From: Ardenticatenales bacterium | GTDB lineage: Bacteria > Chloroflexota > Anaerolineae > Epilineales > Epilineaceae | Assembly (NCBI GenBank): GCA_020853525.1 | Contig: JADYYS010000065.1 | Coordinates: 1 to 64,000 of the forward strand | Length of the DNA stretch: 64,000 nt | Reading direction: 5' to 3' | Shown: positions 301-32,721 of the stretch, piece by piece | Layout of the letters: every line of letters begins with the position of its first letter | Numbering within the stretch: the stretch's first letter is position 1 | The notes under the pieces: generated by a model | What the model was told of the DNA's origin: nothing | The model's input: only the letters and a program-made list of their open reading frames with translations | Databases searched by the model: none | Translations under genes and position numbers: made by a program

Positions 301-546
301 GCAACCATGGCTATGGGCACATGAAGCCGGATCAGATGTCGGAATGGACAGGCGGCAGCCGGGTCGAGCGAGACATCCTCCGCTGCCTCCCTGGACAGCC
401 GCGGGTTGCCTGCAGATGCGCATGCGGGTCAGCCGTCGCGGCCGTCAGTTCTCCTGCTCGACGCACCCCCGCGCCTCGTCCGTAGCCAGCTCCCGCATGA
501 GTTCGCCCTGGCGCGTCGCCGGACAGGACGTGCTACCATCTCAGAC

Positions 547-996: not shown

Positions 997-1003
997 CCCA
1001 AGT
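976..1003. repeat. 14-bp tandem duplication across the MNT stop codon
   Basis: Two perfect back-to-back copies of TCCGTAACCCAAGT (976-989 and 990-1003). The TAA that ends the upstream gene lies in the second copy. Confidence 0.9.
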
Positions 1004-1025
1004 ATCGACCCGCTGAGTCTCAGCC

Positions 1026-1517: not shown

Positions 1518-1805
1518 TCACACGATCCGAAACGCCTCCACCCGCACCACCCCACCCCGCCCCATCACTCCGATCCGCCTGAAATCCGCCTCGCACAGCG
1601 CGTAAAACCGCACGCTGTCCGCCCGCGCGTCGATCTCGCCCTTCAGGCGCGCCTTGAGGCGGCGCAGCGCCTTGTCGTCCAGATCGCACTCGAAGACGCT
1701 GTACTGGACGCGGGCGCCGTAATCCTCCATCGCCTTCATCACCTTCGTGCGGCGGCGGTCGTCGGCGATGTCGTAGCAGATCACGTAGAACATAGAACTG
1801 GACAT
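1518..1805 (-). CDS. cas2: CRISPR-associated endonuclease Cas2
   Basis: This 95-residue protein has the standard Cas2 ferredoxin-like start MFYVICYDIADDRRRTKVMK, with the catalytic-site Asp in YDIADD, and a YSVFECDLD segment typical of the second strand. Cas2 forms the Cas1-Cas2 integrase complex that inserts new spacers. Two in-frame ATGs exist, at 1805 and 1793. I chose 1805 because AGAAGGGAG lies directly upstream. It is the last gene of a long minus-strand unit, 20 bases after the RemA-like gene and close to cas1 and the reverse transcriptase, so it belongs to the adaptation module. Confidence 0.95.
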   Translation of the reverse strand: MSSSMFYVICYDIADDRRRTKVMKAMEDYGARVQYSVFECDLDDKALRRLKARLKGEIDARADSVRFYALCEADFRRIGVMGRGGVVRVEAFRIV

Positions 1806-1825
1806 GCTCCCTTCTGCCGCGCTCG

Positions 1826-2083
1826 TCAGGATTCGCCTCCGCGACCCGCCTGCAGCGCACCGCGCCAGCGCTGAACGGCCGTCTCCGGCGCCAGTCCCAC
1901 CAGCGCCACGTGCCCGCTGTCCAGGAACAGCGCCGCCCGCGCCCGCCGGCCGAACGTCAGGTCGATCAGCCGCCCGTGCCGTTCGGCCTCCGCCATGACC
2001 CGCTGCACCGGCGCGGAGCGCAGGTTGCCGACCGCCACGATCCGACCCGCCGCCACTGCAGCGCCAAAGCCCACCGACACCAC
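1826..2083 (-). CDS. remA: RemA-like (DUF370) DNA-binding protein between cas1 and cas2
   Basis: This small protein of about 85 residues lies between the cas1 stop (2128) and the cas2 start (1805). It has the conserved pattern of the RemA/YlzA (DUF370) family: VGFGAAV-AAGRIVAV near the N terminus, then SAPVQRVMAEA, then GRLIDLTFGRRARAALFLDS and GHVALVGLAPET. Family members are about 85-90 residues, so the length fits. RemA in Bacillus subtilis is a DNA-binding regulator of biofilm matrix genes. The family is widespread in Firmicutes and related lineages, but I know of no role for it in CRISPR. I placed the start at GTG 2083, so that the protein begins just before the conserved VGFG. GTG 2080 is equally possible and no strong ribosome binding site is seen. 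Confidence 0.8.
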   Translation of the reverse strand: MVSVGFGAAVAAGRIVAVGNLRSAPVQRVMAEAERHGRLIDLTFGRRARAALFLDSGHVALVGLAPETAVQRWRGALQAGRGGES

Positions 2084-2127
2084 GCCGCCCGCCGCCCATA
2101 CCTCGTCCGCACCGGCAGTACCGTGAC

Positions 2128-3144
2128 TCACCGCGCCGTCACCGGCACGTACGCCGCGTCGGCCGACGTACACGCCGCCGCGATCTGCCGTACCTGGAGC
2201 TCGATGCAGCGCCGGTACGTGTTCCGCCGGCCTTCCAGCGGGTGCATGATCCGCGCCGCCATCCGCTCCTCGTACGTCCGCAGCACCCGCTCCAGCGCGC
2301 TTGCACCCAGCTCCACCGGGCGATCCGTTCGCCCCGTCTGCACGAAGTCCTCGGGCGTCAGCTGGCCGGTGGCCACCATCCCCAGCAGCGGGCCGTCGAC
2401 GACCAGCGGGCGAAACTCCTCCATCACATCGAGCGCCAAGGAGGGGCGGCCGTAGTGGATCGCGTGGAAGAAGCCCAGGTAGGGGTCCATCCCCACCAGC
2501 TCGACCGCCGCTAGCACGTCCTTCAGGAGGAGCGCGTAGCCGAAGCTCAGCGCCGCGTTGAACGGATCGGGCGGCGGGTGGTACGCCCGACCGGCGAACC
2601 GCCACTCGGGACCCACCAACAGCTTCAGGCCTCCGAAGTAGTACGCCCCGGCCTTGCCCTCGTAGCCGCGCAGGCTGTCGATGTCCTTGGCGGCGCCCAT
2701 CGCCGCCTGCATCCGGGCGATGCCGTCCACCGCTCGCTCAAATCCCTCCGCCAGCGCCGGTTCCGTCGTCGTGCGCAGCCGCCGCTGCAGCAGCGTCCGC
2801 TGGTTGGCGATCTTCCCCGCCACGATGCGCGCCGCCAGCGCCCGTGATCTGCCCTCATCGCTCATCGCCCGCAGCTGCGCCTGGCGGAGCGCCGCCAGCT
2901 TGGACCCCGAGCCCGTCAGCCGACCGCGGTACCGGAACGCGCCGGAGTAGAACACCACGTCGATGTCGCGCTCCAACAGCGCCGCCATCGCCTGCGTGCT
3001 CACCTGGACATTGCCCACCACCGCCAGCTGCTCCACATGCAGCAGCGGCACGTCCAGCAACTCCGTCCTGTCCTTCGTGACCACCAGCCGCTCGCCCTTG
3101 CGGCGGACCGTGGCCCCTTGCTCCCGCACATAGATCGTCGTCAT
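2128..3144 (-). CDS. cas1: CRISPR integrase Cas1
   Basis: This 338-residue protein is a complete Cas1. The N-terminal beta domain starts MTTIYVREQGATVRRKGERL and includes the LLHVEQLAVVGNVQVS stretch. The C-terminal helical domain holds the metal-binding residues: the Glu in LRGYEGKAGAYYF, the His in GFFHAIHYGRPSL, and the Asp/Glu of LALDVMEEFRPLV. Cas1 with Cas2 catalyses spacer integration. The ATG at 3144 lies 12 bases after the reverse transcriptase stop, so the two are probably translated from one message. Unlike many RT-associated systems, the RT here is a separate protein and is not fused to Cas1. Confidence 0.97.
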   Translation of the reverse strand: MTTIYVREQGATVRRKGERLVVTKDRTELLDVPLLHVEQLAVVGNVQVSTQAMAALLERDIDVVFYSGAFRYRGRLTGSGSKLAALRQAQLRAMSDEGRSRALAARIVAGKIANQRTLLQRRLRTTTEPALAEGFERAVDGIARMQAAMGAAKDIDSLRGYEGKAGAYYFGGLKLLVGPEWRFAGRAYHPPPDPFNAALSFGYALLLKDVLAAVELVGMDPYLGFFHAIHYGRPSLALDVMEEFRPLVVDGPLLGMVATGQLTPEDFVQTGRTDRPVELGASALERVLRTYEERMAARIMHPLEGRRNTYRRCIELQVRQIAAACTSADAAYVPVTAR

Positions 3145-3156
3145 GTCGCTCCCCCC

Positions 3157-4209
3157 CTACAACGGGTAATGCTCCCGCCGCACAAAGAAGTACCCCAGGA
3201 ACTTGAACCCCTCGTCGAAGTGCACCAACCGCGTCTTGAACGGGTTCAGCTCCAGCTTGAGAGTGGCCAGCTCCGCGGCCGCCGCCTGCAATGCCGCCTC
3301 CGCGTCGGCCCGGCGCGGCGCGAAGCAGACGAAGTCATCCGCATAGCGCACCAGCGGGATCCGCCGGCGGGCCATCGCCTCGTCGAAGGCGTGCAGGTAG
3401 ACGTTGCACAGCAGGGGCGACAGCGGCCCGCCCTGCGCCGCGCCCGCGGCCACCATCCGCCCGTGCGCGTCCAGCACCCGCACGTCCAGCCATCGTCGGA
3501 TGAGCTCGATCAGCCGCCGGTCCTTCACCCGCTGCCGCACCAGCTTGAGCACGATGGCGCTGTCCAGGCTGTCGAAACAGTCCTTGATGTCGGCGTCCAC
3601 CACCCAGCCATTGCCCGCGTCGCGCGCCTTGATCACCGCCCTGACGGCCGTCTCCACCGATCGGCCCGGCCGAAAGCCGTGGCTGCACGGCAGGAACTGC
3701 GGATCGAACAGCGGCTCGAGCAGGTCGTAGACGGCGCGCTGTGCCACGCGATCCCGCAGCGTCCACATCGCCAGTGGCCGAAGACCCACGCCGGACTTGG
3801 GCACGAAGATCCGCCGCACCGGCCGCGGCCGGTACGTCCCCGACCCGAGCTCGCGCGCCAATACGTCCAGCTCCTCGTCCAGCCGCTCGGCAAACGACGC
3901 GATATCCACACCGTCCACTCCCGCCCCACCGCCGTTCGCCTCGACCTTGCGCCAGGCGCGTTGCATGGCGGCCACCGAGAACGCTCCGTGGCGGGAACGC
4001 GGGCGCGGCAGGCGGGCGGAAACGCGACGCCGTTCGTCGCCGTCCGGCCGTGCGCCATTCGTTGGGGTCGACGTCGACCTCGACGACGCCGTCGCAGGCC
4101 GGCTGGAGGGCTGTGCCCGCCGCTCCGCCAGCCAGTCGGCCAACGGACCGGCCAGCCGGTTCGCGAGACGATCGGCGAACCAGCGGCGGGGACCGTTCAG
4201 CCGGTGCAT
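3157..4209 (-). CDS. Stand-alone CRISPR-associated reverse transcriptase
   Basis: This 350-residue protein has the group II intron-like RT order: YRPRPVRRIFVPK-SG-GLRPL (motif 1), VVDADIKDCFDSLD (motif 3), GAAQGGPLSPLLCNVYLH (motif 4), VRYADDFVCF with the catalytic YADD (motif 5) and LNPFKTRLVHFDEGFKFLGY (motifs 6-7). It ends directly after FLGYFF, so it lacks the maturase (X) and endonuclease domains of intron proteins. RTs next to cas1 in type III systems can support acquisition of spacers from RNA. The gene overlaps the upstream GTPase gene by 13 bases and ends 12 bases before cas1. The start at ATG 4209 adds about 80 residues with no recognised domain before the RT core, so a later start is possible. 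Confidence 0.9.
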   Translation of the reverse strand: MHRLNGPRRWFADRLANRLAGPLADWLAERRAQPSSRPATASSRSTSTPTNGARPDGDERRRVSARLPRPRSRHGAFSVAAMQRAWRKVEANGGGAGVDGVDIASFAERLDEELDVLARELGSGTYRPRPVRRIFVPKSGVGLRPLAMWTLRDRVAQRAVYDLLEPLFDPQFLPCSHGFRPGRSVETAVRAVIKARDAGNGWVVDADIKDCFDSLDSAIVLKLVRQRVKDRRLIELIRRWLDVRVLDAHGRMVAAGAAQGGPLSPLLCNVYLHAFDEAMARRRIPLVRYADDFVCFAPRRADAEAALQAAAAELATLKLELNPFKTRLVHFDEGFKFLGYFFVRREHYPL

Positions 4210-5366
4210 GGAGCGTCGTCGTCCGACGACGGATGCTGCGATCGAAGGAAACGTCTGCCGTGCGTCCGCGCGCGGAGTCGCGCGACGAATCCATCGCGGT
4301 AGTGCTTCCCGAAGCCCACCCGTCCAACAAATCGCCGCAGTCCCGCGGCCCGTCCCCCCGGCGTCCGACCTCCCCGCTCGTGATGCCGGATGAGCGCCTG
4401 CCCCAGCACCAGTGTGAACACCCCGCTCAGCGCACCGCTCGCCACCCAGCCGATGCCGGGCACCAGCTTGACCACCTGCTGCACCGCCAGCCGGACCGCC
4501 AAGGCGCTGGCGGTCGACAATGCCAACTCGCGCGTGCCGTCGCCGTCGGCGTCGCGGCCGTAGAGCGTGGCCAGGCGGGCGACGAGGCGGGACTGGGCGG
4601 CGATCAGGATCGGGATGTCCAGCAACGGCACCGGTTCCAGGCCGACGGCGAGCGACAACAGCGCGGCCTGCCGCGCCGCGCGCTGGGCTGCCACGCGGCG
4701 CACGGACGTGAAGTCGCGGCCCAGCGTGACGGCCACGGCCGGGCAGGCATCGATCATCCGCGGCACGAGCTGCTCGGCGACGGACGCGCCGCTCAGCGCG
4801 GACACCGGGACCACGGAGCATGCCAGGCGATGCGCGCGCTCGGCCTCGATGTCACCAACGGCCCCGCCCAGCGCGTCCTTCTTGTTGCCGGCCACCACGT
4901 ACGGCCGGCCGAGCGCCCGCATCCGGCTGAACCAGCGGTACTCGGCCGGATCGAGGTCATGGCTGAGGTCGGTGACGAAGACCACCAAGTGCGCATCGAC
5001 GACCTCGCCCAACAGATCCGTTCGCCGCAGCTCGCCGTCCGCGTCGTCGTCCAGTGGCAGATCGACGATGACGAACGAGCCGAAGTCCTCGATGTCGCAG
5101 CCGTGGAAGCCGGTGTCGTCGCCGTGAATGCCGATGACGTCGCTGCCGCCGCTGCCGCACTGCGACAGTTCCCAGCCGCACAGCCGGTTGCACAGCGTGG
5201 ACTTGCCGGCGCCGCGGCGCCCGACGAAGACCGTTCGGCACAGGCTTTCCTGTCGCACGTCGCCGCGCATCCGGTGCCAGTCCAACGCCCAGCCGCCGGC
5301 GCCGGATACGGCCCGCGGCAGCGCGGCCCACGAGCCGCTGTCGTCGAATTCAGGCTCGCGCATCAT
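4197..5366 (-). CDS. Dynamin/Era-like GTPase with hydrophobic C-terminal (DUF697-like) region
   Basis: This 389-residue protein has a P-loop GRRGAGKSTL (about residues 52-61), a G3-like VDLPL, and a G4 motif NKKD, so it is a Ras-like GTPase. The second half is rich in Ala/Leu/Val (LEPVPLLDIPILIAAQSR; AVRLAVQQVVKLVPGIGW) and resembles the membrane-associated DUF697 region found in YcjF-type GTPases. The start ATG 5366 overlaps the upstream stop as ATGA, with GGGAG just upstream, and its 3' end overlaps the RT gene by 13 bases. Makarova and Koonin (2010) proposed a membrane-remodelling system in diverse prokaryotes built from a tubulin-like protein, a vWA protein and a distinct GTPase. This gene fits the GTPase role. 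Confidence 0.8.
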   Translation of the reverse strand: MMREPEFDDSGSWAALPRAVSGAGGWALDWHRMRGDVRQESLCRTVFVGRRGAGKSTLCNRLCGWELSQCGSGGSDVIGIHGDDTGFHGCDIEDFGSFVIVDLPLDDDADGELRRTDLLGEVVDAHLVVFVTDLSHDLDPAEYRWFSRMRALGRPYVVAGNKKDALGGAVGDIEAERAHRLACSVVPVSALSGASVAEQLVPRMIDACPAVAVTLGRDFTSVRRVAAQRAARQAALLSLAVGLEPVPLLDIPILIAAQSRLVARLATLYGRDADGDGTRELALSTASALAVRLAVQQVVKLVPGIGWVASGALSGVFTLVLGQALIRHHERGGRTPGGRAAGLRRFVGRVGFGKHYRDGFVARLRARTHGRRFLRSQHPSSDDDAPCTG

Positions 5367-7495
5367 CCCGCTCCCGTCCATGTCCAAGCCGATGCCCAAG
5401 CCGACGCCGATGCCGATGGCGAGGCCGATGGTCCGTCCCCTGTCCGCGCCTCTCCCGTCCCCAGCCCCCGCACCTCGACGACGACGCCGATGCGCAGCGG
5501 ATCGCGGTTATCGATCACGGCGTGCCAGTCCTCCTGCCGCACCGCCTGCCACAGCGCCGACCGGGCGCCGCCCGCCACCGCCAGCACCCACCTTGTCTCC
5601 AACGGTGCGCCCTCGACCGGGGACAAGGCCGTGCCGTCCCACGTGAGCCACGGCACCGCGGCCTGACGCAGCAGAGCCGTCGCCGCGATGGCCTCCGCGA
5701 TGTCCGGAGCCGGTGACGTTCCGGCGCGGGCCAGCGCGTCGTCCAGCGACTGTCCGACGACCCGCCGGGCCGCGTCGAGGACGGTCGAGGCCAGCTCCGC
5801 CGCCGGCGGCGCGTCGTGCCACCACGCCGCCGCGTCGACCAACGCTGTTCCACCGCCGTCGCCGGGGCGCGCGTCGAGCGCCGCTTGGACGACGGCGGCG
5901 ATGCCGTCGACCGGCAGCGACAGCTCGAAGCACGGCGCCGTGCCGACGGACCCGCCATCGGCCGGGCCGGCGGCATCGGCGACGATGGCCTGCGCGCGGA
6001 GCAACGCCGCCGTCAGCCCGTACGCCCGCGCATGCGCCTCGCCGACCCGCTCCGCTGCGGCGCCGGCGGCTTGGGCGGCAGAGCATTGCGCACACGCCAT
6101 TAATACGGCTTCCCGCTTGGCGTCGAGCAGCGCCGTGACCGCGGCCGCCGCGCCGACGAACTGCGCGCGGGCGCGGGCGGCGGCGCAGCGACGCAGGAAC
6201 GCGCGCATCCGGAAGCGACAGCCGGACGGAGGCCGGACCGTCCTGTCCGGCGCGAGCCGGCTCAGCGCTGCCGCCTCCTCTTCCAGTGCCGCATCGATCG
6301 CGGCGATGTCGTGCTGCACCGCGGCGGCGGCCGACACGGCGGCCGCGCGTGTCGCATCGCACGCCGTGCGCAGCGCGTCCAGGCTGCGGGCAACGGCGCC
6401 GAGGCCGTGCGCCGCCAGCCCAGCCACGGCGCCGTCGAGGGCTGTGTCGAACGATTCCTCCCAGTGCCGCAGCAGCGCCGCGGCACCGTCGTTCAGCGGC
6501 TCCGCCTGCGCTGCGGCCCACGCCAGCCGTGCCAGCGCCGCCTGCACGGCCGCGTGCGGATCGGAGGTGCGCGGATCAGCGGCGTGCGGATCGCCCGACG
6601 GGCCGGCGCGGACGTCGAGCGGTCCCGCGAGCCCGTCGATCAGACCGGCGGCGGTCGGCAGGCCGGCGACGCCGTCGAACGATGGCGGCACGGCCGATCC
6701 GCGATCGTCGTCGACATCGCCGAGCAGGCGCGCGATGTGATCCAGCGCCACGCCGCGGGCCGCGTGCTCCACCGCCGCGTTCCGGTCCACGACCCCCAGT
6801 GCCAGGCCGGCCGTGCGGACGTCGGCCGCGGGGTCGGGTACGAGGTCCGGCCAGCGGTCCGGGCCGAGGAGCGCCAGGTGGAGCACGAGCTCCGCCGCGC
6901 CGGCGATCCGATCGGCGCGGCGCGGGAAGCGCCAGCCGGCGGCCGTGACGGAGGCCAGCACGATCCGGCCGCCGTCGAAAACGGCGTCTTCGTCCCGCGC
7001 CGGCGGACCGTCGGCGTCGTCCGCCTGCTGCCCGACGGGCGACGAAGCGACCGCACCCGGCCGCCCGGCTGCCGGCGCGAGCAGGACCGCCGTCACGGAC
7101 GTCGATGCCGCGAGGCGGGCTGCAATCGCGCCCCGCACCGCCGTGACGACGTCGGCCAGGTGCGCCGCCTGCCCGTCGGTCGGCAGCGACGCGACGACGA
7201 TCGTCGCCACGTCGGGCGGCATCCCGTCGCCCGACGTCGTCCAGCGGACGGCGCGACCCACCGCCGCGCCATCCAGCCGGGGCGGCCGCGCCAGCCGTTC
7301 GAGCGCCGGGTCGAGCGCCCCGTCCACGGGCCCTTCCAGCCGAACGAACGCCGCGCCCGCCGGCAGCCGCCAGCGCTCCCGCGCCCGGCGGCGCGCCTCG
7401 GTCACCACGCGCATGCCCAGCGGGCCGACGCCGATCCAGACCGTGCGCCGGGCGAGGGGCATGGGCGGGTGGTTCGCGGCCGGCGCCGGTGTCAA
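5363..7495 (-). CDS. Large uncharacterised partner of the tubulin-like protein
   Basis: I do not recognise this 710-residue protein with confidence. The N terminus (RRTVWIGVGPLGMRVVTEARR) has a GxGxxG-like turn after a beta strand, similar to the first Rossmann turn of the neighbouring tubulin-like protein, so it could be a divergent tubulin-like paralogue or regulator. The rest is Ala-rich and helical with possible coiled coils (residues about 370-520). No second nucleotide-binding motif is visible. The TTG start at 7495 overlaps the previous stop as TTGA, and ATG 7462 is an alternative. Its 3' end overlaps the GTPase start, so all three are tightly coupled. Confidence 0.65.
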   Translation of the reverse strand: MTPAPAANHPPMPLARRTVWIGVGPLGMRVVTEARRRARERWRLPAGAAFVRLEGPVDGALDPALERLARPPRLDGAAVGRAVRWTTSGDGMPPDVATIVVASLPTDGQAAHLADVVTAVRGAIAARLAASTSVTAVLLAPAAGRPGAVASSPVGQQADDADGPPARDEDAVFDGGRIVLASVTAAGWRFPRRADRIAGAAELVLHLALLGPDRWPDLVPDPAADVRTAGLALGVVDRNAAVEHAARGVALDHIARLLGDVDDDRGSAVPPSFDGVAGLPTAAGLIDGLAGPLDVRAGPSGDPHAADPRTSDPHAAVQAALARLAWAAAQAEPLNDGAAALLRHWEESFDTALDGAVAGLAAHGLGAVARSLDALRTACDATRAAAVSAAAAVQHDIAAIDAALEEEAAALSRLAPDRTVRPPSGCRFRMRAFLRRCAAARARAQFVGAAAAVTALLDAKREAVLMACAQCSAAQAAGAAAERVGEAHARAYGLTAALLRAQAIVADAAGPADGGSVGTAPCFELSLPVDGIAAVVQAALDARPGDGGGTALVDAAAWWHDAPPAAELASTVLDAARRVVGQSLDDALARAGTSPAPDIAEAIAATALLRQAAVPWLTWDGTALSPVEGAPLETRWVLAVAGGARSALWQAVRQEDWHAVIDNRDPLRIGVVVEVRGLGTGEARTGDGPSASPSASASAWASAWTWTGAG

Positions 7496-10311
7496 GCGCC
7501 GCCGTCCCGTGCGCGCAGCCGGGCGTTGCGCCCGATGAGCGTGGCGTAGTCGCGGGCCAGCCGCTTGAGGGCGCGCTCGAGTTCATCGTCCGCCGGATCG
7601 GCCGTCGACCACGCATCCAGAGTCTCGACGGCGTGCGCCGTGCCCACCGCCTCGACGTGGTCGTCGACGCGCAGCACGATCTCCCGCACCAGGTCGGCGA
7701 GCTCGGACAGGCTGCGCAGCGTGCGCTCGCCGCCCTGGCCCAGCCGGATCTCGCGTGCCAGCGTGTCGGCGGGCTGGTAGTAGAACCAGGCGCCGCGGTT
7801 GTGGATGAGCCCGAAGGCCAGCCCGAGCGCGAGCGCCAGGCGGTGCTCCTGCGGCCGCGTCTGGAAGCCCGGCAGCGTGTGGAGCGGGCGGCGGCCTTCC
7901 TCGCGCTCATAGGCGCGCACGTACTCCGGCCAGGCCTGCAGCGCACTGTACGGCAGCCCGACGCTGAGCGTGAGCACGGTCACGGCGTACGGGTCGTGCG
8001 TCGAGACCAGGCTCGTCGCCTCGCCGGCCAGCAGCGTGGCGCCGGCGTTCGGAACACCGACGACCTCGATCCGGCGCAGCGCGGCGTCCCCGCCCGGCAG
8101 GCGGGTGAGGTCGATGTTCACCGCCGGCATCGCCGCGGCGCGCAGCGCCGCCAGCCGCGAGCGCGGCGAGACGTCCGGCCGCTCGGCCATCGCCTGCTCC
8201 ACGGTGAACGCGCGGATGGGCTCGAACGGCACGCGGCACACCGCATCCAGGTGGACCGCCGCATCCTCGGGCTCTTCGGCCAGGGCCGCCAGGTGCCCGC
8301 CCGCCGCCGCCAGCCAGCGCGCCTCGACGACGGCCGCCGGTGAGCGGTGGCGCGCGTACAGCGTGTCCAGCAGGGCGTCATCCACGAGCCGCAGCGCCGG
8401 GTCGCCCGAGCGTTTGGCCACCGCCGTCACCATCTCGGCGCTGCGCTGCCGGGCGTCCTCCAGCGCGCGGCCGAGGCGGGCCGCCAGCAGGCCGAGGCGG
8501 CCCAGGCGCTCCGCGGCGGCGTCGTTCAGATCGCCCACGGCCGCCAGCGCCTGCTGGTGGGCCGCGCGGTCCAGCACGGCGAGGCCGACACGCTCGGCGA
8601 ACCGGACGTAGTCGTCCGCCGCGGCCAGCAGCCGCGCGCGGCGGAAGGGCCAGGCGACCGCGGCGGCGGCCACCATGTCCGCCGATCGCGCCGCCAGCGC
8701 GGTGCGGGCCGCCTTCTCGTCCGCCTTCGCTTTCTCCAAGCCGATGCCGAGCTCCGCGTTCAACAACGCCAGCTGGTGCTGCAGCGCTTCGAGGCGTGCC
8801 ACCGACCCGCTGACGCCGCCGATGCCGGCCAGCGATCCGTGGCCAAGCCACGCGGCCAGCCGGTTCCGCCACGCCAGCGCCGTCGCCGTCCCGTTCTGCT
8901 CGATCCAGACCGTGAAGTCGCCGGCCACCTGGACGCGCTCCCACTCGCGCACCCACTGTTCCGCCTGGCCGGGCAGCGCCTCGGCCGCGGCATCGCGGAT
9001 CCGCGGCGGCAGCTCGAGGGCCACGCCGAGCGGCGTGCCGGCCGCGTCGCGCATGAGGCGATCGCGCAGCTGGCTGCTGCGGATCCCGGCGGCGTCGCAC
9101 CACTCGGCCACGGCGGCGGTCACGATGTCCGCGTCCGCCGGAGCGAGCACGTCCTCGGCCAGGGTGTCCGCCACCAGCCGCGCCGCCAAGCCGTCGGCGA
9201 TCCTGCCGGACGGGAACTCCAACCGGGCGAGGCCGATGCTGCCGAAGAACGTCGCCCGCCCGTCGGCCGTGCGCTCGGTGAGGACCTCGTCCAGGTTGTC
9301 CATCTGGACGTCGCCCTGCTCGCCCAGTCGTGTGGCGCAGACCACCAGCAGGGACTGGGCGATCATCCGGCAGAGGTCGTCGCGGCTGACCCAGGTGCGG
9401 CCGCCCTCGTCGACGGCATCGACGAGCAGGTACATGTCGAACGGCGGGCGTGAGGGCTCGAGCACGGTGCCGTTGCGGTAGCGCAGCGGCGGCGCGCCGT
9501 CGATCATGACGGACTCCAGCTCGCGCAGCGCGGCCACGGTGTTGGGCGCCAGGCTCGGGCTGTTCGTGCCCCGGAACGCGCCGGGCAGCATCCCCATCCC
9601 GATGCTGACGCAGGCGTCGCCGAGCGTCCCGAGCGCCTCCATCTCGGCGCGCAGCAGGTAGCCGAGGTCGAGGAACATGCCGGAATTCGTGCCGCCGCAC
9701 AGCGATCCGACCTGCACCACCTTGACCCCTCGACCGGCGTCCACGTGCAGCCGCTCGTCGCCGTGGTTGTCCCGGCCGGCCAGCACCCACAGCGCGCGGC
9801 GGACCTGGTCCTGGATGGCCGGGAACTGCCACTGGAACGCCAGCGCGCCGACCGGCCGGAGTGCCTTGGCGGCGTGGGCGGTGCTGATCGGCGGCAGCTC
9901 GGCCAGCGCCGGCAGCCGCTCGCCGATCGTCGGGTGGTTGGCCAGGTGCTTGCGGATGCGCGCCACCGGGATCGGCCCGAGCGAGAAGCGTTCCGCTCCC
10001 TCTTCCAATGTGATGATCCGGTCGCCGAGCGCGACGGAAAGGCTCTCGTTGTCGATGTCGAACAGCAGCAGCCGGATGCCGGCCGGCACGGCACCGTAGA
10101 TGGCCACGAGCTGCGCCTTGAGCGACAGGAGCACGCGGTGCCCCACGCCGCCCGCGCCGACGATCAGCGCCGGCTGGGCGACGAACCCGGGCTCCGCCGC
10201 GGATCGGGGGTCATCCGCGTGGCCGTGGGCCATCTGGGCCATGGCCAGCGCGTGCGGCAGCGGTCCACCGAAGGTGGGGCGAGCGGGACGAGCGCCATCG
10301 CGCACGGTCAT
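7492..10311 (-). CDS. Tubulin/FtsZ-like protein (TubL-type)
   Basis: This 939-residue protein opens with a Rossmann-type strand-turn PALIVGAGGVGHRVLLSLK (about residues 48-66). It then has a tubulin-type glycine box, VGSLCGGTNSGMFLDLGYLL (near residue 205), close to the GGGTGSG loop that binds GTP phosphates in tubulin and FtsZ. Family members with this architecture occur with vWA and GTPase genes in a predicted membrane-remodelling system. The remaining 600 residues are helical and may form a filament-associated extension. ATG 10311 has GGAGGA six bases upstream. It lies 46 bases after the vWA gene and overlaps the next gene by four bases, so it is the core of a co-translated set. Confidence 0.85.
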   Translation of the reverse strand: MTVRDGARPARPTFGGPLPHALAMAQMAHGHADDPRSAAEPGFVAQPALIVGAGGVGHRVLLSLKAQLVAIYGAVPAGIRLLLFDIDNESLSVALGDRIITLEEGAERFSLGPIPVARIRKHLANHPTIGERLPALAELPPISTAHAAKALRPVGALAFQWQFPAIQDQVRRALWVLAGRDNHGDERLHVDAGRGVKVVQVGSLCGGTNSGMFLDLGYLLRAEMEALGTLGDACVSIGMGMLPGAFRGTNSPSLAPNTVAALRELESVMIDGAPPLRYRNGTVLEPSRPPFDMYLLVDAVDEGGRTWVSRDDLCRMIAQSLLVVCATRLGEQGDVQMDNLDEVLTERTADGRATFFGSIGLARLEFPSGRIADGLAARLVADTLAEDVLAPADADIVTAAVAEWCDAAGIRSSQLRDRLMRDAAGTPLGVALELPPRIRDAAAEALPGQAEQWVREWERVQVAGDFTVWIEQNGTATALAWRNRLAAWLGHGSLAGIGGVSGSVARLEALQHQLALLNAELGIGLEKAKADEKAARTALAARSADMVAAAAVAWPFRRARLLAAADDYVRFAERVGLAVLDRAAHQQALAAVGDLNDAAAERLGRLGLLAARLGRALEDARQRSAEMVTAVAKRSGDPALRLVDDALLDTLYARHRSPAAVVEARWLAAAGGHLAALAEEPEDAAVHLDAVCRVPFEPIRAFTVEQAMAERPDVSPRSRLAALRAAAMPAVNIDLTRLPGGDAALRRIEVVGVPNAGATLLAGEATSLVSTHDPYAVTVLTLSVGLPYSALQAWPEYVRAYEREEGRRPLHTLPGFQTRPQEHRLALALGLAFGLIHNRGAWFYYQPADTLAREIRLGQGGERTLRSLSELADLVREIVLRVDDHVEAVGTAHAVETLDAWSTADPADDELERALKRLARDYATLIGRNARLRARDGGA

Positions 10312-10357
10312 GTGGTCCTCCGATCGGGCACTGTCCGAGGTGTGATCGTCTGTAGCG

Positions 10358-12190
10358 TCATCGGCGTGCCGCGCCGTCCCACGTGCCGCCGGTGCGCGCC
10401 CGCGTGCCCGGCTGCATCACGTTCTCGTAGCGGCCGCGCCAGCTTCCGACGGCGATGTCGTCGCCGTGCACCAGGCCCCGCCGCGCGCGAATGGGTTCGC
10501 CGTTCACCGTTACGAGGCCGATGCCGAGCCCGTCCTCGATGATCAGATCGGCCCCAGCCCCGGCCCCGGCCCCGCCGTGCGGCGCCACGAGCGCGGCGCG
10601 GATCGGCGCTGCATCCGGGCTGTCGACCACGATGTCCGCGCCGGGCGCCGTCCCGATCAGGAGTCGGCTGCGCCCATCGAGTCGGATGGGTTGGGCGACG
10701 GCGCCGTGGCCGGACTGCGCGACGAGGGGGCGGAGCGAACCTTCGAGCGACGCGCGGGACATGCGGCCGCCGGGCCATAGCCGGCTGGGCCTGCCGAGCA
10801 GACCGGGCTGGCGGACGACGACGGCGGCGGTCGCACCAATGACGCCGACGAGGAGCAGGGTGGCGATGAGCGCGAAGCCGAGCCGGCCGCGGCTTCCGGG
10901 TTGCCCGGCAGCGCCGGCGAACCTTGCCGCCGCAGCCGCCGTCGGAGTGACGATGGACGGCGCGGTCCGTGCGGACGTTGCGGTCGCCACCAACGGCGCG
11001 GTCGCGGTGGGCGTCGTGTTCACGGGGGACGACGTGCGCGCGGTGGACGTCACCGTCGCCATGTCCGCCCATGCCTGGTATGCCGCCCCGTCGTCGGACC
11101 GCAGCCGCCACGTGCCCGCTGCCGGCTGGTCGAGCGACCAGATGGACGAACGGCCGTCCGGGCTGCGGTGAACCGCGAGGACGTCGTCGTCCGCGGCGGC
11201 GACCGCGGTGAGGGATGGGCGCACGAGGTCGACGTCGACCGCTCCGTCCGGCCCGGCGGCGACGACCTTCATGCGGCGCGTGCCGGGAGCGACGGCGATC
11301 GGCCGGCCGCCGGCGGCGATGTCGGCCGGGGCGGCGGTGGGCAGCGGAACGGATGCGTGGCCGACCAGATCGCGGGCGATGGTGTGGTAGACGCCGAGCA
11401 GGTCGGCGGGTGCGGTGGCCACGAGGAGGCGGCCGTCACGGCGGGCGGCGACATCCGTCCAGATGGCGGTCCATGCCGCGCGCTCCGCGGCCGGCGTCGT
11501 GGCGTCGGCGGGGGCGAGCAGCACCGTGATCCAGGCGGCGCCGTGGTCGACGAGCCGCGCGAGGTCGCGATCGAGCGCGCGGCCGGCGTTGTCGCTCGGC
11601 GCGGCGCTGGGCGCATCGGCCGTCTGGGGCAGGCCGTCCGTGAAGAGGACGATGGCGACGCGGCGGCCGGACTGGGTGCGCGGGCTGTCGAATGCCTCCG
11701 CAATGGCAGCGTCGAGCGCGGCGCCGATGGCCGTCCAGCCTTCGGGGGCGGGGCTTGCGAGACCGGCCAGGAGCGCGTCGCGGCCGTCGGGGGTGGACGG
11801 ATCGGTGAGCGGAACGGCCAGCCGGGCGCGCGTCCCGAAGTGGACGATGCCGATCCGCCAGACACCGGGCGCGGCCTCGGCGCCGAGGTAGTCCACCAGC
11901 AGGCGCGCGCCGGACATCCGCAACAACGCGGGATCGGAGGCCCGACCGTTCGATCCGAAGAGCGAGCCACTCTGGTCGAGGACGATGACGACGTCCGTGC
12001 CGTCGAAGCCGCCGATGTCGGCCAGCGGGGCCGGAGTGGACACGGCCGGCGCGGCGCTCAGCTTGGCCATGCCCCAGCCGAGGCCGACGCACGAGCCGAG
12101 GGCCAGCACGAACCCGATGATGGCGACGGCCAGGCAGCACCCCGTTGCCCCTCGAGCCGCCGTGCGCAGACGCACGGGCCAGTACCGCAT
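10358..12190 (-). CDS. Membrane-anchored vWA protein with C-terminal FHA domain
   Basis: This 610-residue protein has one N-terminal membrane segment (AVAIIGFVLALGSCVGLGWG, about residues 21-40), then a von Willebrand A domain with a MIDAS motif DQSGS near residue 70 and FTDGLPQ near 185. A second membrane helix follows (FALIATLLLVGVIGATAAVVV, about residues 430-450), and the C terminus has an FHA-like fold (SRLLIGTAPGADIVVDSP, then VNGEPIRARRGLVHGDDIAVG). FHA domains bind phosphothreonine, so a kinase-regulated role is possible. ATG 12190 is chosen because AGAGG lies five bases upstream; GTG 12196 is also open. It precedes the tubulin-like gene and corresponds to the vWA component of the proposed membrane-remodelling system. 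Confidence 0.8.
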   Translation of the reverse strand: MRYWPVRLRTAARGATGCCLAVAIIGFVLALGSCVGLGWGMAKLSAAPAVSTPAPLADIGGFDGTDVVIVLDQSGSLFGSNGRASDPALLRMSGARLLVDYLGAEAAPGVWRIGIVHFGTRARLAVPLTDPSTPDGRDALLAGLASPAPEGWTAIGAALDAAIAEAFDSPRTQSGRRVAIVLFTDGLPQTADAPSAAPSDNAGRALDRDLARLVDHGAAWITVLLAPADATTPAAERAAWTAIWTDVAARRDGRLLVATAPADLLGVYHTIARDLVGHASVPLPTAAPADIAAGGRPIAVAPGTRRMKVVAAGPDGAVDVDLVRPSLTAVAAADDDVLAVHRSPDGRSSIWSLDQPAAGTWRLRSDDGAAYQAWADMATVTSTARTSSPVNTTPTATAPLVATATSARTAPSIVTPTAAAAARFAGAAGQPGSRGRLGFALIATLLLVGVIGATAAVVVRQPGLLGRPSRLWPGGRMSRASLEGSLRPLVAQSGHGAVAQPIRLDGRSRLLIGTAPGADIVVDSPDAAPIRAALVAPHGGAGAGAGADLIIEDGLGIGLVTVNGEPIRARRGLVHGDDIAVGSWRGRYENVMQPGTRARTGGTWDGAARR

Positions 12191-12196
12191 GAGCAC

Positions 12197-12353
12197 CTCT
12201 CTTGCCGGGATGGGCGGTGGATGAGGTGCAGTATGCGGGGCGGGCGGGGGCTTGGGTTGGGTGGTTCGTCCTGGGTTTTGGGGGGAGGTTGCGGCGGGTG
12301 CGGTGGGCGATATGGCTATCCGTCGTCAACGGCTGAAGCCGTCGCACCTACGC
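12197..12353. other. Gap between the CARF-HTH and vWA genes
   Basis: This gap of 157 bases is the largest in the minus-strand unit. It contains a small hairpin, ACGGCTGAAGCCGT (about 12327-12340), that could act as a weak terminator or processing site. No gene is seen, and no promoter could be assigned with confidence. Confidence 0.4.
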
Positions 12354-13313
12354 CTACGCCGACATCTCCAGATCGAAGTAATGCGGCGCGAACAGCCCGA
12401 TCAGGACATCCGACGTGAGGCGTGCGTCGCCGAGGTCGAAGGTGGTGCGGAGCTTGAGGAGGATGTCGGCGAAGCGGTTGCGGATCGTGCGCTCGGCCAG
12501 GATGAGGTCGGCGGCGATGTCCTTGTGGGTGGGGCTGCGGTGGCGCGTCAATACCTGGTGGAGGAGGTGGGCGGCGAGGCGGCGTTCCTCGGGGGTGAGG
12601 ACGTCGTCCAGGAAGCGCTGGCAGCGGCGGCGCTGGTCGGAGGCAAGCGCGGCGCGATGGGCCAGGAGGACGGTGTCCGGGTGGTGGGTGGTGAGGAGGT
12701 CGGCCAGTGGGCCGAGATAGACCATGCCCATGGACAGGACCGGGACGGGCACGAGCGCGGCATCGGCCGGGGCGGTGGGGTGCATGGCGCCCGATGCGAG
12801 GAAGCGCTCGGTGCTGATGAGGTGCCAGAGGTGGTCCTGGTGGTCGAAGAGGAGCTGGGCGACGGCCATGCCGTAGACGGAGATGGACTTGCGGCCGCCG
12901 GCGATGGACAGATGGACCAGCTGGCCGAGCCGCTTGCGGTCGCGCACTTCGGCGTGGATCGTGCGGAAGACGCTGGCGGCGTCGTCGGCCGAGCGGATGT
13001 CGAAGATGGGTCGGTTGCGGCTCCCGACGAGGGCGACGCGGCGGTAGCGCAACGGCCAGTTGCGGCCGGCGTGGCGGTACGTGCCGCCGGCGAACGCGGC
13101 GTCGACGGCGGCCACGGCGCGCTCCAGCGCCTCGGCGTTGGGCAGCGGCCGGGAGACGGTGTTGTGGGGCGGTGTGGTGTGGATGACGACGACCTCGGCG
13201 ATGATCCGGCCGGCGGCCAGGAGGAGGTCGAGGGCGGTGGTGACGACCTGGGGTTGGAGGCCGAGGGTGGCGATGAGGACTTCTTCGCGGTGCGGGTCGG
13301 GGGGCGGGGGCAT
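12354..13313 (-). CDS. CARF-like CRISPR protein (NE0113/Csx-type) with C-terminal HTH
   Basis: This 319-residue protein starts EEVLIATLGLQPQVVTTALDL, a Rossmann first strand typical of CARF proteins. It contains VHLSIAGGRKSISVYGMAVA (about residues 135-155), matching the SGGRK-T/S loop of the CRISPR NE0113/Csx family. CARF domains bind cyclic oligoadenylates made by Cas10. The last 65 residues (SPTHKDIAADLILAERTIRNRF) form a predicted winged or LuxR-like helix-turn-helix. No HEPN or nuclease domain is visible. The likely role is a cyclic-oligoadenylate-responsive transcription factor, comparable in logic to Csa3, or a ring-nuclease-like sensor. It heads the minus-strand unit leading to the membrane-remodelling and adaptation genes and is divergent from the HU-like gene. 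ATG 13313 is the start. Confidence 0.75.
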   Translation of the reverse strand: MPPPPDPHREEVLIATLGLQPQVVTTALDLLLAAGRIIAEVVVIHTTPPHNTVSRPLPNAEALERAVAAVDAAFAGGTYRHAGRNWPLRYRRVALVGSRNRPIFDIRSADDAASVFRTIHAEVRDRKRLGQLVHLSIAGGRKSISVYGMAVAQLLFDHQDHLWHLISTERFLASGAMHPTAPADAALVPVPVLSMGMVYLGPLADLLTTHHPDTVLLAHRAALASDQRRRCQRFLDDVLTPEERRLAAHLLHQVLTRHRSPTHKDIAADLILAERTIRNRFADILLKLRTTFDLGDARLTSDVLIGLFAPHYFDLEMSA

Positions 13314-14814: not shown

Positions 14815-17800
14815 GTCGATAAGGGCGTGTTCCCTGTAGAGGGATTGAAACGAAGATCTCGTACAAGGTTCACCTCGTGTTGTCTTCGTCGATAAGGGCG
14901 TGTTCCCTGTAGAGGGATTGAAACGGGATGCTGATGCCGTCGCCGATCCAGAGATCGGGGCGTCGATAAGGGCGTGTTCCCTGTAGAGGGATTGAAACCT
15001 GAAGGCGCCGATGACAGTGAAGATGGAGGCCAGCAAGTCGATAAGGGCGTGTTCCCTGTAGAGGGATTGAAACTTCGGTTAGATGGGTCGACCTTCCTGG
15101 TCGAGCCCGATGTCGATAAGGGCGTGTTCCCTGTAGAGGGATTGAAACTGCTACTCCTGGGCAGGTGGCGGATCAATGACGTCCTCATGTCGATAAGGGC
15201 GTGTTCCCTGTAGAGGGATTGAAACTTGTCATCCCCGACTAGATCGGGGATCTGTTTTTTGGGTCGATAAGGGCGTGTTCCCTGTAGAGGGATTGAAACC
15301 AGAACAGCGTCATCAGCAGTGTGTTCGTTCCGCTGCCGAGTCGATAAGGGCGTGTTCCCTGTAGAGGGATTGAAACGTTGAGCCGGCGCTTCGGGTCCCT
15401 GCGGGGCTTGGTCGATAAGGGCGTGTTCCCTGTAGAGGGATTGAAACCTGTGTAGCCCCTCAGGGCCATCCAGGTAGCCATCGTCGATAAGGGCGTGTTC
15501 CCTGTAGAGGGATTGAAACACCATCTCATCCCGAAGGACGGTGGTGCCGTTACGGCGTCGATAAGGGCGTGTTCCCTGTAGAGGGATTGAAACCGGTCAT
15601 CGAGATGAACTGTGCGCGGTAAGCATCGGTCGATAAGGGCGTGTTCCCTGTAGAGGGATTGAAACGGTGGTCCTTCGAGCGCGAAATGGATTCCACATGA
15701 TCTTGTCGATAAGGGCGTGTTCCCTGTAGAGGGATTGAAACTCGCACTCGCGAATGGAACCCTTGGCTTCTGGGCAGTCGATAAGGGCGTGTTCCCTGTA
15801 GAGGGATTGAAACGGCCGATCGGGTTTCGGCGTCGGAAGGGGTGGCGGTGTCGATAAGGGCGTGTTCCCTGTAGAGGGATTGAAACCCGTGACGGGCGAT
15901 CCGTTGGGCCAGGTGGCCAACGTCGTCGATAAGGGCGTGTTCCCTGTAGAGGGATTGAAACATTGATCCTCTGTCATCCCGAGCGAAGTCGAGGGAGTCG
16001 ATAAGGGCGTGTTCCCTGTAGAGGGATTGAAACTCTGAAAAGAACGAATGATCAAATGCAAAATAAACCTGCGTCGATAAGGGCGTGTTCCCTGTAGAGG
16101 GATTGAAACACTCGGTCCCGTCGTCTCCGTCGGGGTCGGCGTCTTCGTGTCGATAAGGGCGTGTTCCCTGTAGAGGGATTGAAACGGTTGCACCAGCAGA
16201 GCTCAGAATCCTTCTTGCCACGTCGATAAGGGCGTGTTCCCTGTAGAGGGATTGAAACCAGAGATCGTCGGTAACGAAGGCTTCGCCGGAGCTGAAGTCG
16301 ATAAGGGCGTGTTCCCTGTAGAGGGATTGAAACTCACCACGGCTCGCCAACGTGACGAGACGGCCCGTGAGTCGATAAGGGCGTGTTCCCTGTAGAGGGA
16401 TTGAAACCAGAAGCGCAACCGCACGTTTTTTTCGGCGGCATGTCGATAAGGGCGTGTTCCCTGTAGAGGGATTGAAACACGATCTTACCATACGTCAAGG
16501 ACAATACGTAGTCGTCGATAAGGGCGTGTTCCCTGTAGAGGGATTGAAACTTCCAGTCGCGGTCAAGCCGCCACATGTTACCAAGTCGATAAGGGCGTGT
16601 TCCCTGTAGAGGGATTGAAACGTGATCCAGAGACCACACCAGGCGCATCGCACTGCGAGTCGATAAGGGCGTGTTCCCTGTAGAGGGATTGAAACCAGAA
16701 CTGCCAGGAGGACCTTGTCCACAAAGTCCAGTCGATAAGGGCGTGTTCCCTGTAGAGGGATTGAAACATCTTGAGTTGCTCCTCGTGTAGATCCTTCGCC
16801 GCAAGTCGATAAGGGCGTGTTCCCTGTAGAGGGATTGAAACCTTGCCATGCGCCTCTCCACGATGTAAAGGTCGCCATACGTCGATAAGGGCGTGTTCCC
16901 TGTAGAGGGATTGAAACGAACCACCTGGCAAGTAGAACGGCGTCGGTTCCGGCGGGTCGATAAGGGCGTGTTCCCTGTAGAGGGATTGAAACAGGTGCTC
17001 CCGGTCAAGGGATTGTTCGAAGGTTGCGAGTCGATAAGGGCGTGTTCCCTGTAGAGGGATTGAAACATTTGCAGTCCGTTGCATTACCACTATGCTACCC
17101 CGGTCGATAAGGGCGTGTTCCCTGTAGAGGGATTGAAACACGACAACGTCGCCACTGCGGTTGGTCGAACCAACCGTCGATAAGGGCGTGTTCCCTGTAG
17201 AGGGATTGAAACATGTAGTACACCCCGTTGCTGCTGATCGTCGGTAGGAGTCGATAAGGGCGTGTTCCCTGTAGAGGGATTGAAACAGGAGTCCGACCAT
17301 CCTCCACCCTTGACGCAGGTGATGTCGATAAGGGCGTGTTCCCTGTAGAGGGATTGAAACGCAAACATGGTACGTCTCCTGGTCAGTCTGAGTCACGTCG
17401 ATAAGGGCGTGTTCCCTGTAGAGGGATTGAAACGATCTCCCGCCGGCTTCAGGAAAATGAACCCAGCAGTCGATAAGGGCGTGTTCCCTGTAGAGGGATT
17501 GAAACTGCTTGTCCTTGGTGACCAGGTCCGGATCGCTCCACTCGTCGATAAGGGCGTGTTCCCTGTAGAGGGATTGAAACGAGAAACAAACGCGCGCGCT
17601 TCATGGCATGCCTCCTGAGTCGATAAGGGCGTGTTCCCTGTAGAGGGATTGAAACTCCGTCTCGGTGAGCAGGCGAGAGACGTCTCCGACGTCGATAAGG
17701 GCGTGTTCCCTGTAGAGGGAGTGAAACACGAACCACGAACCGTACCATTCGAGCTTGTGCCCCGTCGATAAGGGCGTGTTCCCTGTAGAGGGATTGAAAC

Positions 17801-20800
17801 CACTAGGTCTCCATCATCCTCGTCCATGAGTCCGACAGTCGATAAGGGCGTGTTCCCTGTAGAGGGATTGAAACGTCGTGATCGACGGGTGCGCGGTGAC
17901 GAACGCCGTCAACTGTCGATAAGGGCGTGTTCCCTGTAGAGGGATTGAAACACCCGTCCCCCTTGTAGCGGAGGCACGAAACGTCGAGTCGATAAGGGCG
18001 TGTTCCCTGTAGAGGGATTGAAACTCGAACATGATGGTCTCCTCGCGCTTTCGCGCATGTCCGGTCGATAAGGGCGTGTTCCCTGTAGAGGGATTGAAAC
18101 AAGCGGAGAAGTATCCCCACCTCGCCGGCACTGCTGCCAGGTCGATAAGGGCGTGTTCCCTGTAGAGGGATTGAAACAGCGATACCCCCAACGCGGGGGC
18201 CGGTAGCGAGGCCAGGTCGATAAGGGCGTGTTCCCTGTAGAGGGATTGAAACGCGTGGTTGGCATTTCGCCAAACATCGGGCAAATGTCGATAAGGGCGT
18301 GTTCCCTGTAGAGGGATTGAAACCTGATCCCCCAGACCACAACGATGGCAATCACCACCCGTCGATAAGGGCGTGTTCCCTGTAGAGGGATTGAAACCTG
18401 GTGAGGACGGCAGTCACGAGTGCGCCAAGTGCTGTGTCGATAAGGGCGTGTTCCCTGTAGAGGGATTGAAACGGACGCGTACCGAATGACGTCCGAGGTG
18501 ACGAAGTCCTTGTCGATAAGGGCGTGTTCCCTGTAGAGGGATTGAAACCACCTGCAGTCCGAGGGCGCGCGCGACCGACGCGAAGGTGTCGATAAGGGCG
18601 TGTTCCCTGTAGAGGGATTGAAACGCTTGCTGGAGGGCACGCCCCCCAACGCACGCCTTCTGTCGATAAGGGCGTGTTCCCTGTAGAGGGATTGAAACCC
18701 GCCCGCGCGAACGCGGACGCGGCCCAACAGTCGTGTCGATAAGGGCGTGTTCCCTGTAGAGGGATTGAAACGGTCATCTGCGAGATCATGCCTGAAGAAT
18801 GCGACTGTCGATAAGGGCGTGTTCCCTGTAGAGGGATTGAAACAGGACACCGATCCGGCTTAGGCCGTCTGCTAGCTGTGAGTCGATAAGGGCGTGTTCC
18901 CTGTAGAGGGATTGAAACTCGATGGTCGACTTGCCGCCGGTCTTGGACGATCCGGTCGATAAGGGCGTGTTCCCTGTAGAGGGATTGAAACTGTAGGTGA
19001 AGAGCTCCTCCACGCGACATATGGCGAGTCGATAAGGGCGTGTTCCCTGTAGAGGGATTGAAACGGATGTTCCCCCGCCCGGCTCGTTTGCTCCGGCAAT
19101 GGTCGATAAGGGCGTGTTCCCTGTAGAGGGATTGAAACCGTTTGCTCCGGCAATGCCGGAGCGCCGCAGGCTGAGTCGATAAGGGCGTGTTCCCTGTAGA
19201 GGGATTGAAACCAAACCCAGCACTTGATCAAACCGAACATGATACGCTGTCGATAAGGGCGTGTTCCCTGTAGAGGGATTGAAACGTGTAGGCCATGAAA
19301 TCCGTCACCGTCGACCACTGATCGTCGATAAGGGCGTGTTCCCTGTAGAGGGATTGAAACAGAGTCGCAGGGGTCCTTCGGGACCGGAAAGTAGGCACGT
19401 CGATAAGGGCGTGTTCCCTGTAGAGGGATTGAAACGATCGACCCCCAGTCTGTAGATTGCAAGTGCATCGGGTCGATAAGGGCGTGTTCCCTGTAGAGGG
19501 ATTGAAACCAACAGTTCGGACAAAGTCGTTGTCGGCGCATCTTGTCGATAAGGGCGTGTTCCCTGTAGAGGGATTGAAACCCGCTACCGCAGCCGGCTCG
19601 CATATCGATCTGGTCGTGTCGATAAGGGCGTGTTCCCTGTAGAGGGATTGAAACGCGACGCCCCCCATTACGGGTACCGCTACGGTCACGTCGATAAGGG
19701 CGTGTTCCCTGTAGAGGGATTGAAACCGACGAAGCGCCAGTCGGATGCGTTCAGCAGCCGCCGTCGATAAGGGCGTGTTCCCTGTAGAGGGATTGAAACG
19801 CTGTCTCTCCGAGCCGACCGGCTCGTTGAGGGCCAGTCGATAAGGGCGTGTTCCCTGTAGAGGGATTGAAACGGTAGTGGTGTTCTCGCGCGAGCAGCTG
19901 TTGCGATGTGTCGATAAGGGCGTGTTCCCTGTAGAGGGATTGAAACATCGTCGGACCCATCGTGCTCCTCGGCCTGTGCGCGGTCGATAAGGGCGTGTTC
20001 CCTGTAGAGGGATTGAAACGATGTCGGGGTACGTCTTCCGAATGGTCGCCAACATGGTCGATAAGGGCGTGTTCCCTGTAGAGGGATTGAAACCGTCTGG
20101 ACCGTTCCGGTGTACATGTTGTGGTCGGCGAGTCGATAAGGGCGTGTTCCCTGTAGAGGGATTGAAACTTTTAGTCAGGAAGGCAGGTTGGGAACGGGCA
20201 GGTCTTGCGTCGATAAGGGCGTGTTCCCTGTAGAGGGATTGAAACGGTCTCTCCCGGATTGCAAATCCAGGGCGGGACCCACGGTCGATAAGGGCGTGTT
20301 CCCTGTAGAGGGATTGAAACGTTCACAACGACAGGGCGAAGATCGCGACGTACGTCGTCGATAAGGGCGTGTTCCCTGTAGAGGGATTGAAACGAGAAGC
20401 GAACGGAATGAACGAGCCGATGAATTTTGAGGTCGATAAGGGCGTGTTCCCTGTAGAGGGATTGAAACTCGTGCTGGGCTCGCCTTGCGGCTTGCTCAGC
20501 CTCCTTGTCGATAAGGGCGTGTTCCCTGTAGAGGGATTGAAACACGCGAGGCAACAGTCTCCAGTTCAGGTAGAGTAACAGGTCGATAAGGGCGTGTTCC
20601 CTGTAGAGGGATTGAAACTGTCATACCTTCGCGAGTTCACCTGCGAGCGCAACTGTCGATAAGGGCGTGTTCCCTGTAGAGGGATTGAAACCTTCCGTCC
20701 TCAAAAATAGTCCAGTCGAGTGAGTATGTCGATAAGGGCGTGTTCCCTGTAGAGGGATTGAAACCCGGTGGCAGAATGCCTACCCGGTTATGAATACGGG

Positions 20801-32719: not shown

Positions 32720-32721
32720 CG

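Follow-up and report, generated by a model that had tools for sequence, protein, structure and literature searches.

In Chloroflexota, genes for clustered regularly interspaced short palindromic repeats (CRISPR) adaptation recur in one series with genes for a membrane-anchored vWA protein, a tubulin-like protein with a putative degenerate partner, and a GTPase. The series was analysed in a 64,000-nucleotide (nt) stretch of DNA from an Ardenticatenales bacterium (contig JADYYS010000065.1, positions 1 to 64,000), hereafter the window, in which reverse transcriptase (RT), cas1 and cas2 genes follow the vWA, tubulin-like and GTPase genes (Table 1). The contig has 69% G+C and belongs to a genome of 4.27 Mb in 76 contigs. 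The same gene order, with RTs of one clade, is found at at least 31 distinct Chloroflexota loci, nearly all in Anaerolineae, the class of the window. We tentatively read the series, with not quite even confidence, as an RT-type III adaptation operon of Anaerolineae, in which RT-cas1-cas2 would be expressed distally, behind the vWA, tubulin-pair and GTPase genes, and a scaffold of vWA protein, tubulin pair and GTPase at the membrane would dock RT-Cas1-Cas2 under the control of a signal.

Organisation of the operon

On the minus strand, from 13313 to 1518, the genes are a CARF-helix-turn-helix (CARF-HTH) regulator, vWA, TUB1, its companion (TUB2), GTPase, RT, cas1, a RemA-like gene and cas2. An initial annotation of the window had described the series from vWA to cas2 as nearly gapless with several overlaps, and this agrees with the sequence, where the largest gap in that stretch is 46 nt (vWA-TUB1) and four junctions overlap. 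Overlaps of 4 nt are found between TUB1 and the companion, between the companion and the GTPase (ATGA, with the GTPase ATG at 5366), and between cas1 and the RemA-like gene (GTGA). The overlap of 13 bases claimed between GTPase and RT is reproduced (RT ATG at 4209, GTPase stop at 4197-4199); the GTPase open frame extends upstream to a TTG at 5399. RT and cas1 are separated by 12 nt, and the RemA-like gene and cas2 (ATG at 1806) by 19 nt. The CARF-HTH gene, which had been taken to head the module, does lie upstream of it in the same direction, but the gap to the vWA gene is 163 nt counting to the ATG at 12190 (157 nt counting to a GTG at 12196), and is able to hold a promoter or terminator of its own.

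Table 1. Positions of the operon, the CRISPR array and the type III-B genes in the window, with the matches that identify them.
Feature	Position	Strand	Evidence or remark
CARF-HTH regulator (Cas_NE0113 / CARF3 family)	12354..13313	-	PF09623 E 7e-29; PADLOC CARF3 E 3e-66
CARF-vWA intergenic gap, candidate regulatory region	12191..12353		short palindrome ACGGCTTCAGCCGT spotted by eye
Membrane-anchored vWA protein	10358..12190	-	PF00092 2e-10
TUB1, Tubulin_2 / FtsZ-like-1	7492..10311	-	PF13809 E 4e-41
TUB2 (companion), putative degenerate tubulin-like protein	5363..7495	-	profile comparison with TUB1 family; no family assigned
GTPase with DUF697 C-terminal hydrophobic region	4197..5366	-	DUF697 1e-8; MMR_HSR1 8e-6
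Reverse transcriptase, group II-intron-like	3157..4209	-	RVT_1 1e-34; TIGR04416 290 bits
Cas1	2128..3144	-	PF01867 1e-87
RemA-like (DUF370)	1826..2131	-	PF04025 9e-21
Cas2	1518..1806	-	PF09827 3e-26
CRISPR array	14815..21811	+	94 exact copies of GTCGATAAGGGCGTGTTCCCTGTAGAGGGATTGAAAC
Type III-B operon cmr1, cas10/cmr2, cmr3, cmr4, cmr5, cmr6	28254..36351	+	RAMPs, Cas10-Cmr2_palm2, Cas_Cmr3, Cas_Cmr5

Distribution and co-divergence

A Pfam Tubulin_2 search of 396 Anaerolineae genomes found about 129 genes in 90 genomes, with Cas1 mapped across the same set. For 15 of these approximately 129 genes, a same-strand cas1 follows at a distance of about 4-8 kb (genomes G000, G112, G331, G391, G414, G415, G433, G447, G456, G466, G513, G565 with two, G630 and G634; G and L numbers are our own labels for genomes and loci), against about 0.16 from chance by our own rough rates, with shared descent ignored. 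The joining of a tubulin/vWA/GTPase set to RT-cas1-cas2 that had been noted in the window is thus recurrent, and profiles made from the window proteins recover an identical gene order at the tubulin-cas1 loci. The total of 31 loci was reached through a scan of GTDB contigs with the RT alignment and a search of the class with the GTPase alignment, after which the loci were fetched. The possibility, raised with the initial annotation, that the neighbourhood is unique to a single genome therefore fails, as order, strand and overlaps are kept at at least 31 loci.

In the RT tree, all 31 module-linked RTs appear on one side of one branch and none of 18 unlinked RTs does so, although with weak support (78). 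RTs adjacent to cas1 in loci lacking the module (L113, L114, L138, L151 and L152) are more distant, with 37-42% identity. Pairwise distances are correlated in Mantel tests between TUB1 and Cas1 (0.87), GTPase and Cas1 (0.81), and RT and Cas1 (0.90; all p <= 0.0005), and vWA distances are likewise correlated with those of TUB1, GTPase, RT and Cas1, as would follow if the genes are passed on together. In a divergent subclade (L182, L183, L184, L186, L189 and L191), at the loci where the contig extends far enough, the GTPase is preceded by a tubulin of reduced length, a coiled-coil partner and a membrane protein with two helices.

GTPase and adaptation genes

The window GTPase carries the motifs GRRGAGKS (G1) and NKKD (G4). 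A GTPase gene is found directly 5' of RT in all 29 loci that possess one, with a median gap of -4 nt; the few large negative gaps are an artefact of choosing the longest open frame. It is carried by none of the cas-free tubulin modules that were fetched, and neither RT, cas1 nor tubulin adjoins any of its 15 nearest non-CRISPR relatives (L192-L197 and L199-L207, the flanks of the latter range being short). That only the CRISPR version of the module has the DUF697-type GTPase is a new point. A general partnership of this GTPase with FtsZl1 in Anaerolineae is ruled out by the fetched cas-free modules.

The window RT has an intact YADD motif in the alignment and is encoded separately from cas1; acquisition of RNA-derived spacers is a predicted capability of RT-Cas1-Cas2. 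At L024, the RT (5060-6025) has YADN in place of YADD, with Cas1 and Cas2 intact. The RemA-like (DUF370) gene is found within the adaptation operon at 11 loci, after cas1 in nine (the window, L072, L078, L080, L081, L097, L104, L180 and L181) and before RT in L011 and L087, and at L024 an RNase H-like gene (RVT_3) occupies its position between cas1 and cas2.

Tubulin pair and vWA protein

Proteins of the FtsZ-like-1/Tubulin_2 family have a long helical region after a tubulin-like N-terminal domain. In TUB1, the PF13809 match spans residues 49-382 of 939, and the T4 loop reads CGGTNSG, where the GTP-binding consensus is GGGTG(S/T)G. Solved structures gave no match to the TUB1 tubulin domain in a sequence search. 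A C-terminal patch of TUB1 (residues 828-885) matches PF21096, the model for the C-terminal domain of RecA (E 3.3e-6), as well as RecA chain 3hr8, and this RecA-like patch is conserved across the full-length TUB1 sequences.

Profile comparison newly identifies the companion as another tubulin-like protein, of degenerate form. It aligns with the TUB1 family in hhalign over 646 columns (probability 99.8, E 1.4e-29), and the N-terminal halves alone give 97.7 (E 1.7e-12), against 0.2-0.4 for unrelated controls. The GTP-binding T4 loop is missing from the companion in the motif table. In the cas-free module L009, TUB1 is followed by a gene that also matches Pfam Tubulin_2 (1e-16). This profile kinship, together with the L009 neighbour, suggests that the operon encodes a tubulin pair, the second partner of which has no GTP-binding loop. 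An AlphaFold model of the companion, made from six sequences, has low confidence (mean predicted local distance difference test score 37.5), and thus profile comparison is the sole basis of this kinship.

The vWA protein of the window has two predicted transmembrane (TM) helices (about 15-42 and 437-462) and the metal-ion-dependent adhesion site (MIDAS) motif DQSGS. At nearly all loci, the vWA gene that immediately precedes the tubulin gene encodes a MIDAS motif DxSxS, in L086 only at an atypical place, and membrane helices are predicted in nearly all vWA proteins of the loci. The name vWA-FHA given to this protein in the initial annotation stands for its vWA part, supported by PF00092 and by an AlphaFold model whose Foldseek search matched a solved vWA fold (E 1e-8), but not for FHA, which is without a Pfam match in the window protein and is named by none of the structure matches listed for the model. 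FHA is clear in a cas-free relative alone (E 1.5e-7; 0.038 in L011). The model has a beta-rich C-terminal domain, which may be a degenerate FHA domain.

Upstream regulators

The CARF3 model covers residues 10-312 of the window CARF-HTH (PF09623), which has no effector domain; its HTH was assigned by sequence reading, and no solved relatives were found by sequence search. CARF-HTH proteins of the NE0113 family have been predicted to regulate transcription directly, without an effector domain (Makarova et al. 2014, PMC4012209). The family assignment is the same here, whereas the predicted target is a cytoskeletal/adaptation operon.

CARF-HTH lies directly upstream of the module at six loci (the window, L078, L080, L185, L186 and L189). 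It is adjoined by csx15 at four of them (L078, L080, L186 and L189; PADLOC models match in the two tested, L078 and L186) and by cas6 at L185, with a Pfam match, and L189. At L077, L081, L094, L097 and L183, the gene found instead is a histidine kinase, a response regulator or both; the response regulators are LuxR-type where clearly tested, with L097 below the Pfam cut-off and L081 assigned by sequence reading. Thus, the upstream regulator is swappable, being CARF-HTH, frequently accompanied by csx15, at some loci and a kinase with a LuxR response regulator at others, and this too is new. Both types occur in genome G565, which has two operon copies (L080 and L097), with CARF-HTH upstream in one and a response regulator plus a large neighbouring protein at the other.

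Control by cyclic oligoadenylate, as had been proposed, is plausible given CARF-HTH at six loci, csx15 at four and an intact GGDD palm motif in the translated Cas10 of the window, but the kinase/LuxR loci indicate that CARF is not obligatory. A CARF-HTH operator near the module had also been suggested. The CARF-vWA gaps of the six loci were compared and no common motif emerged: a repeat search of the window gap found no inverted repeat of at least 8 nt, L078, L185 and L189 have inverted repeats, and L080 has a terminator-like hairpin with 14-nt arms and a T run.

CRISPR array, type III genes and other neighbours

A Cmr2-type palm cas10 is present in 17 of 25 operon-bearing genomes; in at least six genomes besides that of the window, cas10 shares a contig with the module, and arrays or cas6 adjoin further module copies (L011, L094 and L185). 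In the window, two more CRISPR repeat copies, partly degenerate, are found at 102-247, near the contig end beyond cas2, with 14.6 kb separating them from the main array. An HU-family protein (13563-14156, plus strand; PF18291 HU-HIG, E 1.4e-10), encoded between the CARF gene and the array, is a candidate leader-bending factor. Between the array and cmr1 (24185-28257, plus strand) are genes for a SIR2-like protein (PF13289) and an SMC/RecF-like AAA ATPase (PF13476), possibly an extra defence pair. Beside cas2, Pfam identifies an MNT nucleotidyltransferase/HEPN toxin-antitoxin-like pair (406-1493, plus strand); similar pairs were seen by sequence reading between GTPase and RT in L024 (6007-6802) and upstream of CARF in L080 (13786-14480).

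Proposed mechanism and alternatives

From the gene content, order, overlap, recurrence and co-divergence, the tubulin kinship of the companion and the CRISPR-specificity of the GTPase, we infer a mechanism of three steps. Upon infection, cyclic oligoadenylate made by Cas10 would be sensed by CARF-HTH and the operon would be switched on, a role that the kinase and LuxR response regulator would have elsewhere. The vWA protein, anchored by its two membrane helices with the vWA domain outside and the beta-rich domain inside, would organise a membrane polymer of active and degenerate tubulin-like subunits. The GTPase, encoded against RT, would then dock RT-Cas1-Cas2 onto this scaffold, and RNA- or DNA-derived spacers would be captured at the membrane, the place of entry of phage nucleic acid, or only with the scaffold assembled. 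A role in spacer acquisition is favoured because the CRISPR-specific GTPase is coupled to RT and because the module is constant with adaptation genes, not with cmr genes. More doubtfully, this could amount to cytoskeleton-guided memory formation, in which a membrane-anchored filament, built from tubulin-like subunits in pairs and joined by a GTPase adaptor, would recruit or gate an RNA-capable RT-Cas1-Cas2 where phages enter, controlled by cyclic nucleotides or a two-component system.

Several observations weigh against a docking scaffold. The T4 loop of the window TUB1 has GGTNSG instead of the GGTGSG found at several other loci. The GTPase is lacking in L011 and L087, of one genus, and a motif search finds G1 and G4 lost in L024, L096, L187-L190 and L107, and therefore GTP switching is not obligatory. 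The GTPase-RT gap is long at several loci, with a maximum of 751 nt in L024, where the MNT/HEPN-like pair is inserted. Modules of vWA and two tubulins without cas genes are common among the loci fetched, and thus the cytoskeletal genes can function in the absence of CRISPR. The correlated distances would be produced by the vertical descent shared by operon genes in itself. A promoter and terminator scan, with a consensus that does not cover Chloroflexota promoters, found nothing above chance, giving neither -35/-10 nor terminator evidence in either direction. Finally, contact between the cytoskeletal and adaptation modules is a prediction of this reading.

The main rival is a realistic possibility, although short of probable: the vWA/tubulin/GTPase genes may be a separate effector, for membrane remodelling, an abortive response or containment, that one infection signal induces together with adaptation, RT-Cas1-Cas2 sharing the operon but having no contact with it. 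This would fit the CARF-HTH and csx15 or two-component genes upstream and the related modules without CRISPR, and Kaur et al. (2020, PMC7159879) read GTPase/tubulin/vWA sets as membrane cytoskeleton-like conflict systems. However, the GTPase is the gene that sets the CRISPR version apart, and its coupling is with RT, not with the regulator. The module stays with the adaptation genes and not with cas10/cmr, which are elsewhere in many genomes. For a separate effector, linkage to type III loci lacking RT would be anticipated as well.

It is improbable that the two halves are functionally unconnected and were inherited with the locus after an ancient operon fusion. All 31 loci are from Chloroflexota and their RTs form one clade, and therefore part of the recurrence is common descent. 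However, order, strand and overlap are kept despite deep divergence (tubulins are 20-50% identical), while the surrounding RemA, RNase H, MNT/HEPN and CARF or kinase genes turn over. The reverse direction, with RT-Cas1-Cas2 serving the cytoskeletal system as, for example, a recorder or DNA-processing component, is very unlikely; cas10 is on a different contig or undetected in several operon genomes, but in the window the 94-repeat array and a complete cmr operon are nearby, and three further copies adjoin arrays or cas6. A chance neighbourhood or an artefact of the 76-contig assembly is already refuted by 31 independent loci across many assemblies, named GenBank records among them.

Relation to known systems and significance

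Membrane-remodelling operons of FtsZl1, vWA and GTPase genes were described by Makarova and Koonin (2010, PMC2875224), in a paper that does not mention CRISPR. Shared with these are a Tubulin_2 protein with a long helical C-terminal part, an adjoining vWA protein with intact MIDAS and TM helices, and a P-loop GTPase. The operon reported here differs in its putative degenerate second tubulin, in a DUF697-type GTPase abutting RT and in the CRISPR adaptation genes, and has neither an OmpA-like gene nor a kinase in the module.

The view of the initial annotation that no link to CRISPR adaptation had been published does not hold. The main text of Altae-Tran et al. (2023, PMC10910872) lists vWA-related systems that are associated with CRISPR loci together with tubulin, kinase, phosphatase and TM proteins, and it counts vWA among novel associations of adaptation modules. 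One UAS entry of that work may be identical with the window operon. However, these are list entries in the main text, which describes neither the gene order nor the RT clade, the tubulin pair or the GTPase. The link was thus noted earlier at the level of a list, and the architecture is the addition made here.

As in RT-type III adaptation modules (Silas et al. 2017, PMC5513706; Toro et al. 2018, PMC6013744), a group II-intron-like RT with intact YADD is found by cas1/cas2, with a III-B effector and an array; here, in contrast, RT is a separate gene behind the vWA/tubulin/GTPase set. Tubulin is absent from the text of Silas et al., and in the literature searched no paper combining "RT-Cas1" and "tubulin" was found. 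The GAP1-N2 conflict systems, in the part of Kaur et al. (2020) that describes them, share two tubulin-domain genes, a vWA protein of extracellular topology and a GTPase. Their own features, as given there, are GAP1 and FNIII components, zinc-ribbon GTPases and a tubulin type found in Firmicutes/Actinobacteria, with no CRISPR genes described. Neither GAP1 nor FNIII was assigned by Pfam among the operon genes, a GAP1-specific profile not having been run.

The recurrent operon suggests that memory-making is tied to a membrane-anchored, cytoskeleton-like structure. The spacer source of RT-containing systems has been called enigmatic (Silas et al. 2017). With regard to the cellular position and timing of spacer capture, the operon is a concrete candidate for spatial control of adaptation, and the FtsZ-like-1 family, unexplained so far, gains a defined context in antiviral defence.

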